Origin: Gemmatimonadota bacterium
Lineage (GTDB): Bacteria > Gemmatimonadota > Gemmatimonadetes > Gemmatimonadales > Gemmatimonadaceae
Direction: 5' to 3'
Length of the DNA stretch: 56,568 nt
NCBI GenBank assembly: GCA_003223455.1
Contig: QHVE01000029.1
Span: 3,491 to 60,058, forward strand
The translations under genes were made by a program, and so were the position numbers. The notes beneath the pieces are model-generated. The model saw nothing but the letters and a program-made list of their open reading frames with translations, had not been told where the DNA came from and did not search any database. Positions 18,933-30,416 of this stretch are shown here, piece after piece. The first letter of the stretch is position 1; every line of letters starts with the position of its first letter.

Positions 18933-19681
18933 CACGGCTGTTCCGCGCCACCTGCGATCCGTCGCAGCTCGATCTGGCGCTCGACGTGACGCCTCCGCGC
19001 GATGCGGAGGAGCTGCTCGGTCTCCTGCGCGAGCTCGGGCTCGCGCGGATCGCGCGCTGCCGCCTGACGCGCAACCGCAACGTGATGGTGAGCTTCGGCG
19101 GTGGCGAGCTGCGCGTGCACGAAGGCTATCTGACCGCGCCGCTTCCCGTGCTGCGCGCCATCGTCACGTTCGTCGAGGGGCGAACGCGCGCCGAGCGGCG
19201 CGCCGCGCAGCGTGTCATCGTCTCACACCCGATCCGCTCGGCACGCCCGCAGGAGCGACGCGACCGCACCCACGCCGATGACGTCGAGATCTCCGAGAAG
19301 CTCGTCGCGTGGCACTCCCGGTACAACTCGCGGCACTTTCACGGTCGTCTCAAGCATGTGCCGATCCGCGTCTCGCGTCGGATGAAGAGCCGGCTCGGGC
19401 ATTACACGGCTGGAACGCCGCTCGGCGAGGCGGCCGAGATCGCAATCAGCCGCGCGCATCTGCGGAAGCACGGATGGGAGGAAGTGCTCCATACTTTGCT
19501 GCACGAGATGGTGCACCAGTGGCAGGATGAGACCGGGCACACCATCGATCATGGCGCGACGTTCCGTGCCAAGGCGCGCGAGGTCGGGATCGCACCGTAC
19601 GCGCGGCGCGTGCTGGCGACGCGACCCGGACGGGCCGAGGGCTCGCAGAGCCTCGGCCGTCGTGCGGCGCGCGACGACTAG
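18917..19681 (+). CDS. SprT-like zinc metalloprotease-fold protein
   Basis: A 254-residue protein. The C-terminal half carries the SprT/SPRTN-like signature: WHSRYNSRHF, RRMKSRLGHYTAG, ISRAHLRKHGWEEVLHTLLHEMVHQWQ with the zinc motif HEMVH, then GHTIDHGATFRAKAREVG giving the third ligand. The N-terminal ~120 residues are Arg-rich and resemble no domain I can name. Bacterial SprT proteins are poorly characterised; eukaryotic relatives degrade DNA-protein crosslinks. GTG 18917 lies inside the end of the phosphoesterase gene. Its stop shares a CTAG with the convergent beta-lactamase-like gene. Confidence 0.8.
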   Translation: MLRALTRLFRATCDPSQLDLALDVTPPRDAEELLGLLRELGLARIARCRLTRNRNVMVSFGGGELRVHEGYLTAPLPVLRAIVTFVEGRTRAERRAAQRVIVSHPIRSARPQERRDRTHADDVEISEKLVAWHSRYNSRHFHGRLKHVPIRVSRRMKSRLGHYTAGTPLGEAAEIAISRAHLRKHGWEEVLHTLLHEMVHQWQDETGHTIDHGATFRAKAREVGIAPYARRVLATRPGRAEGSQSLGRRAARDD

Positions 19682-21012
19682 GGCGACGTCGTCGCGGCCG
19701 CTGGCGCCCGGGCGAATCGGGGGCCGAGCTCGCCCTTGCCCCAGGTGCCCGCACCCCACTGGATCGCCGTCGCCGGCCCGGACGTCGCGCCGACGAACGT
19801 CACCGGCGCGTAGTCGGCAGTGGAGAAGAAGGTGCTGTCGGTCGTCGCGAGCAGCGCGCGGTCACCGAAGAGCATCAGCGACGGGGAGAGGAACGTCACC
19901 TTCGAGAGCTGTCCCCCACCCGTGTCGAAGTCTCCCGTGAGCCGGTCGCGCTGCGCGACGGAGAGCGCGACCGGCCTGACCGTCGGGACGACCGGCGCCG
20001 GGACCGTCTCACCCGCCGCGAGACGCGCAATGTCACCTCGCAGCAGGTCGATGGCGCCGACATGCGAGTTGCCGAAGAAGAGCACGCTCAGCGAGTCCGA
20101 CGCCCGCCAGTCGGCGAAGGCGCGGAATCCGTTCGTGACGCCGTTCCACGACAGGCCCGTAGGGCGAACGAGCGCTTCGCGTGCGGAGGCGCCGTACGCG
20201 CCGCCAAGCAGTCCCTGCATCACGGCGAAGATGTCGCGGGGTGTGGTGTACACCGAACCCGCGCCCACGAGGAACGACAGGTCGCGGAGTGGCGCGTTGA
20301 TCACCGACGTGCCGACCGGGACGACGCTCGTCGCGCGCCCGGGAAGCAGCTCACGGTGATCGAGGTGCCGGATCGTGTGGGCGCTCACGGGACGCACGAC
20401 GTGCTCCTGAAGCAGTTCGTCGTACGTCTTGCCGCTGGCCCGCTCGAGCACGGCGGCGAAGAGCGAGTATCCACCCGAGCTGTACGAGGTGCGGGTCCCG
20501 GGGTCGAACAGCAGAGGCACCGCGTTCGCTGCCCGCACCATGTCCGCCGTGGTGCGCGGCTCCTCCTGCGCGTCCTCGGCGAGGAGTCGGTGCGGCACAC
20601 CGGCGGTGTGATTCATCAACTGTTCGATCGTCATCCGCTTCCCGTACACGTACTGCGGCAGCCACCGTGAGACCGTGTCACCGAGCGAGAACCGCTTCTC
20701 GCCCAGCAGCCGCATCGCGACGATGATCGTGAGCGGCTTCGTGATCGACGCGACGTTGGTCGGCGTCGTGGGTGTGAACGGCACGCTGAGCTCGTGATTG
20801 GCGAACCCGAACGAGCGTTCCACGAGCACACGTCCGCCGCGGGCGACCAACAGCGTCCCCGAGAGCTCGTGCGCGGCGAGGGGCGCGACGTACGCGTCGA
20901 TGCGACGCACCAGCGTGGCGTCGTCGACCCGAGCGGGTGCCTGAGCGAGCGCCGTCACCGACGCGGTCGAGAGCGCAGCGGTGAATGCGACGACGCGACC
21001 GATGGTGGGCAT
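19678..21012 (-). CDS. Secreted serine beta-lactamase-like / penicillin-binding hydrolase
   Basis: From ATG 21012 the product is 444 residues with a clear signal peptide (FTAALSTASVTALAQ). The active-site motif SITK is at residues 89-92 and the second motif is at YSSGGYS, so this is a class C-type serine hydrolase (Beta-lactamase superfamily, often D-aminopeptidase or esterase). A third KTG-type motif is not obvious. The last ~110 residues form a beta-rich domain similar in style to the extra domain of the VanX-like lipoprotein. An ATG 36 bases earlier (21048) is possible. A TAGACTTTTC box lies upstream on the minus strand. Confidence 0.82.
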   Translation of the reverse strand: MPTIGRVVAFTAALSTASVTALAQAPARVDDATLVRRIDAYVAPLAAHELSGTLLVARGGRVLVERSFGFANHELSVPFTPTTPTNVASITKPLTIIVAMRLLGEKRFSLGDTVSRWLPQYVYGKRMTIEQLMNHTAGVPHRLLAEDAQEEPRTTADMVRAANAVPLLFDPGTRTSYSSGGYSLFAAVLERASGKTYDELLQEHVVRPVSAHTIRHLDHRELLPGRATSVVPVGTSVINAPLRDLSFLVGAGSVYTTPRDIFAVMQGLLGGAYGASAREALVRPTGLSWNGVTNGFRAFADWRASDSLSVLFFGNSHVGAIDLLRGDIARLAAGETVPAPVVPTVRPVALSVAQRDRLTGDFDTGGGQLSKVTFLSPSLMLFGDRALLATTDSTFFSTADYAPVTFVGATSGPATAIQWGAGTWGKGELGPRFARAPAAATTSP

Positions 21013-21140
21013 CCAGCGCTCCGGACAGAAAAGTTGGCGGTTCGGCATCGTGCTGATAATTCAGCAGCGACCGCGAAAAGTCTAGGCCTTTGTTGCGCGC
21101 GGCGGCGTGATCGCTCGGACGCGGGCGAGAGCGCCCCGGT

Positions 21141-25791: not shown

Positions 25792-26649
25792 ATGGCCACC
25801 ACACTCGAAGATCGCGGCGCCGTGGCGACGGGCGCGACCGTGTACGATGTCGCGACGATCATGGGTGCACTCTACGGCGATGGCATCACGGCACTCCGCG
25901 GCGCGTTCAGCCGCGAGTGGGCGCAGACGATGCGCGAGGACATCGACGAGCTGTTCGCGGACGCACTCGCGCGTCCGGGCGGGGCCGTTGGCCGCGGTCC
26001 GAAGCGTTACTACGTGGAGACGCACCCGGAGCGCATTCGTGGCTTCGTTGATCTCGTCACCCATCCGTGGGTAGAGACCGTCTGCACCGCCGTCCTCGGC
26101 CAGGACTACCGGATCGTCGAGATCGGGTTCGACGTTCCCCTGCCGGGCGCGCTTCATCAGCCGTGGCATCGCGACTTTCCCGCTCCGGAGGAGACGACGA
26201 AGGGACGTCGTCTGAATTCGCTCGCCTTCAACCTCACGGGAGTGGACACGACGGAAGACATGGGGCCGTTCGAGATCGCACCGGGCACGCAGTGGGACGA
26301 AGCGACCGGCTTCGAGCACGGCATGTTCCCGCCGAAGTCGCTGTATCCGCGCTACGAGGCGCGCGCCCAGCGCAAGCTGCCGAAGATGGGCGACATCTCC
26401 GTGCGCTCCGCGCTCACGATCCACCGTGGCACCGTGAACCGCTCGGATCAGGCGCGCCCAGTGCTGGTGCTCGGCGTCGACGCGCCGGATGCCCGCAATG
26501 CCGAGCGGCACGACCTGCAATTCACGCGTGCGTTCTACGATTCGCTGCCCGAGCGCATACGCACGCACCTCACCTGCCGAGTGGTCGACGAGCTCGAGCC
26601 CATCGTGCAGGCACACACCATCGAGGGACTCGTGATGGGAGAGGCTTAG
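25792..26649 (+). CDS. Phytanoyl-CoA dioxygenase (PhyH) family Fe(II)/2-oxoglutarate oxygenase
   Basis: A 285-residue enzyme. The iron facial triad is visible: H-x-D in QPWHRDFPAP, and the distal His in LTIHRGTVNRSDQARPVLVLGVD with the 2-oxoglutarate Arg ten residues later. Family members hydroxylate acyl chains, amino acids or secondary metabolites; the substrate here is unknown. ATG 25792 is chosen because AGGAG at 25779-25783 gives a good 8-base spacing; ATG 25786 would leave only 2. The stop overlaps the convergent HEAT-repeat gene by 4 bases (TTAG). Confidence 0.82.
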   Translation: MATTLEDRGAVATGATVYDVATIMGALYGDGITALRGAFSREWAQTMREDIDELFADALARPGGAVGRGPKRYYVETHPERIRGFVDLVTHPWVETVCTAVLGQDYRIVEIGFDVPLPGALHQPWHRDFPAPEETTKGRRLNSLAFNLTGVDTTEDMGPFEIAPGTQWDEATGFEHGMFPPKSLYPRYEARAQRKLPKMGDISVRSALTIHRGTVNRSDQARPVLVLGVDAPDARNAERHDLQFTRAFYDSLPERIRTHLTCRVVDELEPIVQAHTIEGLVMGEA

Positions 26650-27854
26650 GCACGCACGCTAGTTCTCTTCCTTCCTCTCGCCGAGCGCTTCACGGCGGCC
26701 GGGGTTCCGATCTCACCCAGCGCCTCGACGGCATGCTGGCGAATCTCGCGACTCGCATCACCGAGCAGGTTGATGAGCGCGGGCGTCGTCGCGGGATCGG
26801 CAATCTCGGCGACGGAGCGCGCCGCATGCTCGCGCAGCTCGCTGTCGCTCGACTGAAGCGCGGCGACCAGCGCCGCGGGAGCCGTGTGCAGATCCTCCAG
26901 CTCGCCAAGCGCGACAGCCGCGGCGTGCCGCACTTCGATGTTGGCGTCGCCCACCGCACGGCCGAGCACCGTCGCCGACGATGCGGCGCTCAAATCGCCG
27001 AGCGATTCGGCAGCCGCGGCACGCACCCGCGCGTCGGGATCGCTCGACAGTGATCGCTCGAGCGGCGCGACGGCTGCCGGTGATTTGAGGTCGCCGAGCA
27101 CGTCGGCCGCCATGGCGCGAATGGTCGGATCGGCGTCGCGCAGCGCCGGGATCACCTCGGGTGCGACGTGCGCATCTTCGATCTGGCCGAGTGCCCAGAT
27201 GGCCGCCAGACGAATGCGCGAGTCCGAACCGTGCATCGCCCGCACGAGCGCGGGGACCGATGCGCGATCCTCGATCTCGCCGATCGCCCACGCGGCCATC
27301 GCGCCGACCGCCGGTACGCGATCTTCGAGCGCCGACTCGAGTGCGCCGAGCACGTCGTGCGTCTCACCGATGCCGGCGGCATGCGCCGCCGCCTCCCGTA
27401 CGATGGGCGACGGATCGCGGAGCAGGGTGCGCAGCCGCTCGGGCACGATCGCGCTGTTGCCGAGCAGCTTGCTCGCCACGCGTCGGACGCAGGTGTTCGT
27501 CGCGCTCAGCTCCGCCACGAGCCGATCGATCGCCCGCGAGTCGGTGACGCGTCCGCTGACCGAATCCTTCGCCGCGCGCAACGCCGGCGTCGTCGCGGCG
27601 AGGCGCCCGACGCCACCTCGCTCGCCTCCGTTCCAGAAGTTGCCGAGTTGATCACCGATCAGCTCACACACGACGGGATCGGTCTTGCCGAGTGCGTCGA
27701 GCAGGATCGCGACACGACCGGAGTCGGGACCAGGGCGCTGCGGGCCATCGAAGTGCGGCGACGCTGCGATCGACGGGGAGTCCAGCGTGACCGCCGCGCC
27801 GATGGCCCCCGCACCGAGCACGGCGGAGGCCAGTAGAACGGGAATCGCACGCAT
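26646..27854 (-). CDS. Secreted HEAT-repeat protein, third gene of the BlaI-type operon
   Basis: A 402-residue protein from ATG 27854 (AGGAGG 8 nt upstream; a first ATG at 27860 overlaps the stop of the preceding gene). A signal peptide (MRAIPVLLASAVLGAGAIGAAV) is followed by roughly 75 residues of linker and a helical segment, then about nine HEAT-type repeats of ~31 residues with the pattern Asp-x-Arg-Ile-Arg-x-Ala-Ala-x-x-Ala-Leu-Gly. The solenoid closely resembles the C-terminal part of the adjoining M56 protein, suggesting an intragenic or gene duplication. Being exported, it could meet the extracytoplasmic HEAT domain of that protein. No catalytic motif is seen. Confidence 0.82.
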   Translation of the reverse strand: MRAIPVLLASAVLGAGAIGAAVTLDSPSIAASPHFDGPQRPGPDSGRVAILLDALGKTDPVVCELIGDQLGNFWNGGERGGVGRLAATTPALRAAKDSVSGRVTDSRAIDRLVAELSATNTCVRRVASKLLGNSAIVPERLRTLLRDPSPIVREAAAHAAGIGETHDVLGALESALEDRVPAVGAMAAWAIGEIEDRASVPALVRAMHGSDSRIRLAAIWALGQIEDAHVAPEVIPALRDADPTIRAMAADVLGDLKSPAAVAPLERSLSSDPDARVRAAAAESLGDLSAASSATVLGRAVGDANIEVRHAAAVALGELEDLHTAPAALVAALQSSDSELREHAARSVAEIADPATTPALINLLGDASREIRQHAVEALGEIGTPAAVKRSARGRKRTSVRA

Positions 27855-27856
27855 CG

Positions 27857-29899
27857 TCATTGCCTCCTCTCACCGAGCGCTTCCGCGGCGGCGCGCCGCA
27901 CCTTGGCATCCTTCGAGGCGAGGCCCGCGCGCAGCGCATCGACCGCCGCGTCGTCGGCGATGTCGCCGAGCGCGGACACCGCAGTCTCGCGCACGTCACG
28001 GTCGGTGTCCTCGAGCATCCGCCGGAGGGACGGGATCGCGGCGATGACCGAGCGGTTGCCCGCGAGCGATGCGGCCTTGGCGCGGACGTCGGAGCTCGCA
28101 TCGCGCAGGAGGGCGAGCAGTGTGGACTCGGGGATCGAGACGTGGAGCTCGTCGAGGGCGTCGAGCGCCTGCTGCCGCACGTCCGCATTCGCGTCGCCAA
28201 GCGCGGGCAGAATCGCCGACGCATGAGCGGCGTCGTGCAGATCGGCGATCGACTCGATCGCCGCCTGTCGTACGTCGGGCGATGGATCGCGCACGAGCGG
28301 CGCGAGCGCGGAACCCGCCGAACGGTCGCCGAAACGCCCGAGCGCGTGCGCCGCCGAATGACGCAGATCCGCATCGGCGTCGGAGAGCAGACGGACGATG
28401 CCCGCCACGGGAACTCCGGACTCGTACTCCGACAACGCGTCGAGCGCTTCCTTGCGCACCTCGAGCTCCGCATCGGTGAGCAGCGAGGATAGGCCGGTCA
28501 TGGCGCGAGGATCCGAGAACTTTCCGAGTGCCTCTGCGGAGGAGGCGCGAACCTTGGCTTCACGGTCGGTGATGGCGATGAGAAGCGCCGGCACGGCGCG
28601 CGGGTCCTCCAGCTTGCCGAGCGATTGCGCGGCAGCCGCACGCACGTCGCCGTCTTCGTCCTTCAGCCGACCAATCAGCGCGACCACCACCGTGCTGTCG
28701 GCGAGCGTGCGATGGGTATCGCCTGTGGACCCGCCGTTGGACGACTGATGAACGACTGCGCTCTCGACCTGTGTCTCGTGCGCCGGTCGGACGTCCGCCT
28801 CCGGCAGGCCGAGGACGGCCGAGGCCTGAGCGGCGCGACCCGTCACGCCCGGAACCATTGCGATCGTCGCGACGACGACGGCTGCCGACGCGACGGCCAG
28901 CACTCGGCGCGGTCGCGCTTCGGATCGGCGGCCGGCGAGCAGCTTCTCGACTCGGGACACGAGCAACGACCGCTCCTCCGCCATCCCCACGACGGGTACG
29001 CCGAGTGGCGACGCCTGGATCCACTCCGCCACCTGCGCGAGGCAGCGTGCGAGCGCCACGCCTGAACCCGTCCGCCGGACCGCCCACTCGTCGCAGAGAT
29101 ATTCGGCGGAGGTGGCGATCCCACGGCGTGCGAGGCGGTTGAGCGGCTGGATCCACAGCACGCGTTCGACCACGCTGACGAACACGAGCCACACCGGATC
29201 GTGGCGCGCGAGGTGCGCGAGCTCGTGCGCGAGCATGCTCCGCTGTTGCTCGAGGTCGAGCTCCGTGAGCGCGCTCTCGGGCAGACAGATCTCGGCGATG
29301 CCGAGCGCGATCGGGCTGGAGATTCGCGCCGTCGTCGTGAGACGCGGCCGGCGACGCAGTCCCGCGTCGCGCGCGAGCTGCTGAAGTTCGGCGAGCAGAC
29401 GTCCGTCGACCACGGCACGCCGATCGCCGATGCGACCGACGAGGATCAACCGGCGTGCGGCGTAGGTGAGCGCGAGGACGAGTGCGACCAGCCCCCACAC
29501 GGTCACGACGAAGTCTCGGGTCGGACGCATCGAGTCGGGCAGAGACGCGACGGAGGAGACCGTCGAGGAAGCCGCGGGCGCTGGCGCAGCGCTCCATTCC
29601 TCGGAACGCACGTCGACAGCAGCGTGCTGCTCGGTGCGCGAGTGCGGAACCGCGGCCGGCGCAGCCGCGGGAGCCGCGCTGGCGAGCGACAGACTTCCCG
29701 CCGGCCGATACTCGAGGCCGCGTTGCATGGTCGCGCTCACCAGACCGCCGACGAGCGCCGCCTTCCAGAAGAGATCCGTCGCCGCGGGCGGCCAGACGCG
29801 CGCGCGCGTGATCGCCCACGCGAGGAGCAGCAGCGCCGTGCTGTGGATGAGGTATGTGAGCAGCCAGGCCAGCACCGCGGAGGCGAGCGTGTCGATCAT
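27857..29899 (-). CDS. BlaR1-type M56 membrane metallopeptidase fused to a HEAT-repeat domain
   Basis: A 680-residue protein from ATG 29899. Helices lie near residues 7-30, 43-58, 130-155 and 333-354. The gluzincin zinc site is HELAH (225-229) with the third ligand in AEYLCDEWAV (about 266-271), as in BlaR1/MecR1. After the last helix, where BlaR1 carries its extracellular penicillin-binding sensor, this protein has a ~45-residue linker and then about nine HEAT repeats (400-675) such as DGDVRAAAAQSLGKLEDPRAVPALL. The start overlaps the BlaI-type stop (ATGA). By analogy a signal on the HEAT side would trigger cleavage of the repressor. Confidence 0.88.
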   Translation of the reverse strand: MIDTLASAVLAWLLTYLIHSTALLLLAWAITRARVWPPAATDLFWKAALVGGLVSATMQRGLEYRPAGSLSLASAAPAAAPAAVPHSRTEQHAAVDVRSEEWSAAPAPAASSTVSSVASLPDSMRPTRDFVVTVWGLVALVLALTYAARRLILVGRIGDRRAVVDGRLLAELQQLARDAGLRRRPRLTTTARISSPIALGIAEICLPESALTELDLEQQRSMLAHELAHLARHDPVWLVFVSVVERVLWIQPLNRLARRGIATSAEYLCDEWAVRRTGSGVALARCLAQVAEWIQASPLGVPVVGMAEERSLLVSRVEKLLAGRRSEARPRRVLAVASAAVVVATIAMVPGVTGRAAQASAVLGLPEADVRPAHETQVESAVVHQSSNGGSTGDTHRTLADSTVVVALIGRLKDEDGDVRAAAAQSLGKLEDPRAVPALLIAITDREAKVRASSAEALGKFSDPRAMTGLSSLLTDAELEVRKEALDALSEYESGVPVAGIVRLLSDADADLRHSAAHALGRFGDRSAGSALAPLVRDPSPDVRQAAIESIADLHDAAHASAILPALGDANADVRQQALDALDELHVSIPESTLLALLRDASSDVRAKAASLAGNRSVIAAIPSLRRMLEDTDRDVRETAVSALGDIADDAAVDALRAGLASKDAKVRRAAAEALGERRQ

Positions 29900-30288
29900 C
29901 TGGATTCTCCCTTCGGAGCCTGAGCGTTCTCGATCATCCGCTTCACGCGGGCGAGATCGCCCGGACTCATGTCGGATGCGGAGATGAGATGCGTGACGAG
30001 AGCGGCAGCGTCGCCGGCGAAGAGCCGTTCCGTCAGCTCGCTCACCATGGAATGTTGGACATCCGCTTCGGTGATCGTGGCGCGATAGAGGAATTGTCGG
30101 TCTCGCGTGCGCCTTGCGACGATCCCTCTCCGCTGCAGGCGGGCGACGAGTGTCGCGATCGTCGTCTGCGCGAGACCGCGCTGCTCGTACATCGCCTCCC
30201 ACAGCTCGGCCACAGTCGCCTCGCCGCGCTCCCACAGGAGACGGAGGATGGCGAGTTGCAGCTCGGTGAGCTCGTGACGTTCGGGCAC
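29896..30288 (-). CDS. BlaI/MecI/CopY-family winged-helix repressor
   Basis: A 130-residue repressor starting at GTG 30288 (GGAG about 5 nt upstream). The DNA-binding domain ELTELQLAILRLLWERGEATVAELWEAM and the recognition helix region AQTTIATLVARLQRRGIVARR match BlaI; the C-terminal dimerisation segment SMVSELTERLFAGDAAALVTHLI carries the usual FaG-D-like motif where proteolysis inactivates the family. Upstream are two perfect and one near-perfect TACA-N2-TGTA operators at 30307-30343, so it should autoregulate the operon it heads. The next gene overlaps its stop. Confidence 0.9.
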   Translation of the reverse strand: MPERHELTELQLAILRLLWERGEATVAELWEAMYEQRGLAQTTIATLVARLQRRGIVARRTRDRQFLYRATITEADVQHSMVSELTERLFAGDAAALVTHLISASDMSPGDLARVKRMIENAQAPKGESR

Positions 30289-30306
30289 TGAGGCTCCAGG
30301 GTGATC

Positions 30307-30343
30307 TACAGGTGTAGATTTACACTTGTAGAATACACCTGTC
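30307..30343 (-). promoter_or_regulatory. Three tandem BlaI-type operators
   Basis: TACAGGTGTA (30307-30316) and TACACTTGTA (30321-30330) are perfect TACA-N2-TGTA dyads and TACACCTGTC (30334-30343) is one base off. Centres are 14 and 13 bases apart, so dimers would stack on roughly adjacent faces. They lie 19-55 bases before the repressor GTG in a locally AT-rich stretch. The response regulator promoter to the right, at 30417, is more than 70 bases away and may be unaffected. Confidence 0.85.
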
Positions 30344-30416
30344 AAGCGTGAGTCCGCTCGGATCGGTCGAGCGGACCCAGGCGCCGCGGGCGCGCGCCAT
30401 AGGCTCAAAGGGAACG

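Follow-up and report, generated by a model that had tools for sequence, protein, structure and literature searches.

The window, by which is meant the whole 56,568-nucleotide stretch of Gemmatimonadota DNA analysed, carries on its minus strand three genes read in succession. The first (29896..30288) encodes a blaI-type repressor of 130 amino acids, starting with the GTG at 30288 and ending with the TGA at 29896 (Penicillinase_R, PF03965, E=2e-27). The second (27857..29899; ATG at 29899, TGA at 27857) encodes a 680 amino acid M56 metalloprotease receptor with a C-terminal HEAT solenoid (PF05569, E=4e-20, and HEAT_2, E=1e-44), and the third (26646..27860), with its ATG at 27860, a secreted HEAT protein of 404 amino acids (HEAT_2, E=3e-64). 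Stop and start overlap as ATGA at both junctions, blaI/M56-HEAT and M56-HEAT/third gene, and in this, as in the naming of a BlaI-type repressor, the original prediction is borne out. The terminator scan found no terminator inside the three-gene operon, and the window has no Rfam match.

At 96 bits against a curated cut-off of 22.6 for PF03965, the repressor is, on this match, a member of the BlaI/MecI family. Its best NCBIfam match is CopY_TcrY, at 66 bits under the cut-off of 122, and TACANNTGTA, of which there are copies before blaI, is the cop operator (PMC7253601). Both would favour a CopY-type copper system in which metal is sensed directly by the repressor, with the M56 and HEAT genes having no part in it. 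However, CopY requires C-terminal CXC motifs (PMC7253601) and the present repressor lacks them, having no cysteine at all, so that it is not a CopY system; with no copper exporter in the operon and the M56 site intact, the copper reading is left with hardly any probability.

A putative -35 element of the operon promoter, TTGACA (30340..30345, minus strand), was recognized from the sequence and is at nearly the same distance in the orthologues L055-L060; it is absent from the list given by a generic promoter scan. Then come two exact TACANNTGTA dyads, operator dyad 1, TACAAGTGTA (30321..30330, minus strand), and, 14 bp from it, operator dyad 2, TACACCTGTA (30307..30316, minus strand), where 0.03 would be expected in the window and two were seen in none of 100 shuffles. 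The orthologues keep both, in position and 14 bp apart. Three TACA-N2-TGTA dyads had been predicted: these two stand, but the third, GACAGGTGTA (30334..30343, minus strand), which overlaps the TTGACA, has one mismatch and no conserved counterpart in the orthologues. The tandem operator of blaI is the sole tandem pair in the source genome when up to 3 mismatches are allowed, and the secreted HEAT protein is consequently the clearest output there. Such a tandem operator is present in 37 of 395 Gemmatimonadota genomes, mostly directly upstream of the BlaI/M56-HEAT operon. Single copies of TACANNTGTA occur elsewhere in the source genome, on contig C90 before an ABC ATPase gene and on contig C116 before a transglycosylase-like gene; these were rejected as targets and treated as chance since the reversed control pattern is commoner than TACANNTGTA itself.

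The receptor and the secreted HEAT protein

By its score against PF05569 (72.7 bits; cut-off 31) the receptor is a member of the M56 family, and the intact HELAH reported for it earlier is indeed there, as the zinc motif H225-E-L-A-H229 (29213..29227, minus strand), with D234 and E266xxxD270. H225, E226, H229, D234, E266 and D270 are invariant among 19 relatives and correspond to H201EXXH, D210 and E242xxxD, the gluzincin signature of BlaR1 (PMC9834060). Searched as a profile, the M56 part hits BlaR1 8exp at E=1.5e-5, with residues 128-274 aligned.

The AlphaFold model of the receptor, for which the 19 relatives were used, has four long predicted membrane helices (residues 2-33, 38-61, 128-156 and 331-348), a protease domain and, after the last of these helices and a disordered linker, nine HEAT helix pairs at residues 402-677 (27869..28696, minus strand), in agreement with the ‘about nine’ repeats counted earlier. 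The stretches 62-127 and 349-400 are disordered in the model. Its HEAT part has a pLDDT mostly above 95, and the placement of the domains relative to one another is not to be trusted because pTM is 0.48. The best VIA-align match of the HEAT part is the alphaRep 4zv6 (Z 28.3, 277 residues, rmsd 3.5), the Foldseek/VIA-align list being filled by HEAT/ARM proteins and uninformative on the protease part.

On which side of the membrane do the repeats lie? BlaR1 is N-out/C-out with its active site towards the cytosol (PMC9834060), and since the receptor is homologous to it, the HEAT domain is most likely outside the cytoplasm. The receptor's TM2-TM3 loop is A/P-rich and its positive loops are on the protease side. 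The original prediction had staked its sensing model on this topology, and BlaR1 homology together with the loop charges supports the placement outside. What the receptor carries there is not a sensor for beta-lactams. Pfam gives no beta-lactamase or transpeptidase domain that would hold the SxxK of a beta-lactam-binding site, and only HEAT repeats after the last transmembrane helix; the match to NCBIfam blaR1_generic is 33 bits against a cut-off of 400. With the sensor domain absent, this is not a BlaR1 beta-lactam receptor.

The model of the third protein and its HEAT_2 match point to tandem HEAT repeats with a solenoid fold, and its N-terminus is hydrophobic, in keeping with the signal-peptide-bearing HEAT protein that had been foreseen. 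Between signal peptide and solenoid lies an N-terminal module (residues 44-136; 27453..27731, minus strand), peculiar to the third protein, in which Cys65 and Cys124 are invariant in 19 class A/B members and in 18 class A members (the classes are described below). With a profile of this two-cysteine module, 32 genes were recovered from 60 genomes; 29 of them adjoin an M56-HEAT gene (two of the 29 being cut by a contig end). For the others, at G059:C13 (L357), G024:C4 (L359) and G055:C125 (L361), no M56 gene was found in the surrounding sequence covered, which makes them orphan partners. The third protein and its relatives constitute a separate family.

Compared with its orthologues, the third protein of the window is missing its last repeat and its C-terminus is out of frame. 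At 26646-26720 it ends in KRSARGRKRTSVRA; another frame of the same segment reads EALGERKEEN followed by a stop, resembling the ends of relatives. One repeat appears to have been lost with a change of frame, either natural or a fault of assembly.

A family with several classes

Relatives searched for with the M56 part, as M56 proteins with C-terminal HEAT repeats, form a family, widespread in Gemmatimonadota, whose orthologous members (approximately 50-70% identity) have the same three genes. A scan of GTDB contigs yielded 57 named loci, with the HEAT-tailed form present in Gemmatimonadota and in three Myxococcaceae MAGs (Myxococcota). The comparison covered 88 complete M56 genes, all distinct and each with over 500 bp of sequence downstream. 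A HEAT tail is present in 46 of them, and in 45 of these the very next gene is a HEAT gene on the same strand, L040 being the sole exception; none of the 42 genes without such a tail has a HEAT gene in that position. The neighbourhood check that had been proposed thus shows the third gene to be strictly co-conserved with HEAT-tailed M56. Fisher's p for this comparison, approximately 2e-24, overstates the case as the rows are related rather than independent, and class A counts include many loci of one clade.

On a quick tree of M56 the HEAT label changes approximately five times (gains or losses), four of these changes being forced by well-supported branches. Class A, the class of the window, is one clade of 32 HEAT rows, and class B, represented in the source genome on contig C69, forms another; amid a mostly non-HEAT clade stands a further HEAT receptor, L044, and there too the partner gene is present. 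Class B receptors and partners have similar P/W-rich C-terminal tails, for example PWPRPWPEPRPFP and PWPWPWPRPRPFP; in class A neither receptor nor partner has one. Taken with the adjacency of the two-cysteine module genes, the class B tails argue that receptor and partner change together.

Class B operons share with that of the window the repressor-protease pair, the HEAT tail and the secreted HEAT partner, but their operator, TGYTGA-N4-TCARCA, is different, and in those of G030 and G045 the third gene has a further operator of its own. The BlaI / M56-HEAT / secreted HEAT set is thus a family comprising no fewer than two classes, with an operator particular to each. Gemmatimonadota also have class C operons, which share the repressor-protease pair and differ in operator (TGCTA-N6-TAGCA), in having a C-terminal repeat of another kind and in lacking both HEAT and a HEAT partner. 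One of these, at L071:4580-7132 on contig C69 of the source genome, has an M56 protein with a C-terminal repeat IPSSxD..., for which Pfam gives no match in that part, and its operator TGCTA-N6-TAGCA also precedes a nearby DUF5916 gene (C69:12221).

What the circuit may do

The reading we prefer, which we would put at about an even chance, is of a BlaI-M56 operon with an extracytoplasmic HEAT solenoid as sensor and a secreted HEAT protein as controlled product, both binding one ligand. A BlaI-type dimer on the two tandem dyads over the promoter, an operator recognized by its conservation, would repress the three genes. By homology and by the model, the receptor would have the topology of BlaR1, N-out with four membrane helices, the zinc protease facing the cytoplasm and the HEAT domain outside. 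Binding of a periplasmic protein or peptide ligand to the solenoid may then, by analogy with BlaR1, lead the protease to cleave BlaI; derepression would yield more of the secreted HEAT protein, and the secreted copy may clear or buffer the ligand, so closing the loop. Of these steps, the action as a ligand sink is the most tentative. The original prediction of HEAT-based sensing outside the cytoplasm, with the third gene's product as partner, agrees with topology and neighbourhood to this extent.

The expectation of one ligand comes from the bla system, where the sensor of BlaR1 is related to class D beta-lactamases and a product induced is a beta-lactamase (PMC9834060). Here too the receptor's tethered domain is related to the product under its control, and both would be expected to bind the same ligand. 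Consistent with the preferred reading are the co-conservation (45/46 versus 0/42), the adjacency of the two-cysteine module genes (29/32), the invariant catalytic residues, the BlaR1 match, the topology, the tandem operators, the class B tails and the operators of the third genes in G030 and G045. Against it, HEAT repeats are all alike, so that similarity of the solenoids says little on a shared ligand; no receptor gene was found next to three of the partner genes; TACANNTGTA alone predicts binding poorly (PMC7253601); and translational coupling in class A implies synthesis at approximately 1:1, which fits a co-receptor equally.

A co-receptor is in fact the main rival. The secreted HEAT protein would be the primary ligand-binding subunit, presenting the signal by HEAT-HEAT contact to a receptor that is silent without its partner. 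The near-perfect co-conservation of the two, the stop-start overlap in class A and the confinement of the Cys module to the partner all speak for it, but some class B partners have an operator of their own and so can be made in excess, and we consider it distinctly less probable, at somewhat under one chance in three. Does the secreted solenoid then remove the ligand or present it? The data separate the two poorly, and by the logic of bla, with receptor and product both HEAT solenoids, we favour a sink or buffer over a co-receptor. To the more specific proposition of a single periplasmic protein or peptide recognized by both tethered solenoid and secreted partner, the former signalling via M56/BlaI and the latter removing or presenting the ligand, we would give a little over one chance in three.

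There is also the matter of genes outside the operon. Class A dyads precede genes for DUF5916 (PF19313, with a CBM9-like domain) in G056, G005 and G045, and the most convincing class A target beyond the operon itself is in G056 (L162:2533-2570), where three dyads in series, TACAAGTGTA, TACAGGCGTA and TACACTTGTA, stand before a DUF5916 gene. Class B operators precede DUF5916 genes in G045 and G005, and class C ones do so in G000, G005 and G007. By a rough count a DUF5916 gene is near the class A operon in 6 of approximately 22 genomes versus approximately 1 expected (Poisson 8e-4). These cases favour an envelope stress or uptake regulator that would mainly control DUF5916/CBM9-like proteins and periplasmic hydrolases, with the secreted HEAT protein as their chaperone or adaptor. 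However, in a held-out test on 15 further genomes none of approximately 26 non-operon class A dyads was at a DUF5916 promoter, and the DUF5916 genes of the source genome have no exact class A dyad. Such a regulator is improbable. DUF5916 as a general class A target, with its three cases in the first genomes and none in the 15 held out, has been downgraded; we take the link, sporadic as it is, to be genuine in some lineages but not the general function.

At L360 (G014:C20) a BlaI / M56-HEAT / secreted HEAT set is immediately preceded by a DUF5916 gene in the same orientation. The source genome has a single exact class B operator (reversed control 0), and it is in the window: TGCTGATAATTCAGCA (21051-21066), with its start 3 bp ahead of the ATG of a gene for a class C beta-lactamase-like serine hydrolase (19678-21048, minus strand; PF00144, E=4e-47). 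Class B/C operators are also upstream of other genes at L214, L206, L216, L218 and L209, which encode an S41 peptidase, an M16 peptidase, two proteins with a carboxypeptidase-regulatory-like start and one without a Pfam match. These five loci suggest that classes B and C have a wider, envelope-related regulon.

Relation to known systems

BlaI-M56 pairs are common in genomes and, to our knowledge, understood almost solely for beta-lactams. The present ones are a large and well-bounded subfamily whose sensor is a solenoid of a protein-binding type with a dedicated secreted partner. If one ligand proves common to receptor and partner, bla would become an instance of a general design, with the sensor as the tethered relative of the product, and the secreted protein could serve as bait in a direct search for the ligand. 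In the open-access literature we found no paper on BlaR1 together with HEAT repeats or with DUF5916, and no description of an extracytoplasmic HEAT-HEAT signalling pair; the M56-HEAT architecture is probably already in domain databases, unremarked.

With CopY/CopR copper repressors the system has in common the repressor family and the TACANNTGTA operator, but its operon has neither the CXC metal motif nor a copper exporter, and its repressor is paired with a protease. Sensor and partner have the fold of HEAT/alphaRep and importin-type solenoids (for the sensor, VIA-align Z 28 with alphaRep 4zv6); those, however, are designed or intracellular, whereas the present two form a secreted pair linked with a membrane protease. 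Closest are BlaI-BlaR1 and MecI-MecR1 of S. aureus and B. licheniformis, which share the PF03965 repressor, dyads of the TACA-N2-TGTA type, an M56 gluzincin bearing HEXXH, D and ExxxD and, as predicted for the present receptor, four transmembrane helices with the C-terminal domain outside. A HEAT solenoid here replaces their class D beta-lactamase-like sensor, and a secreted HEAT protein is encoded where theirs is a beta-lactamase or PBP2a. The system is thus a variant of BlaI-M56 signalling and not a separate class.
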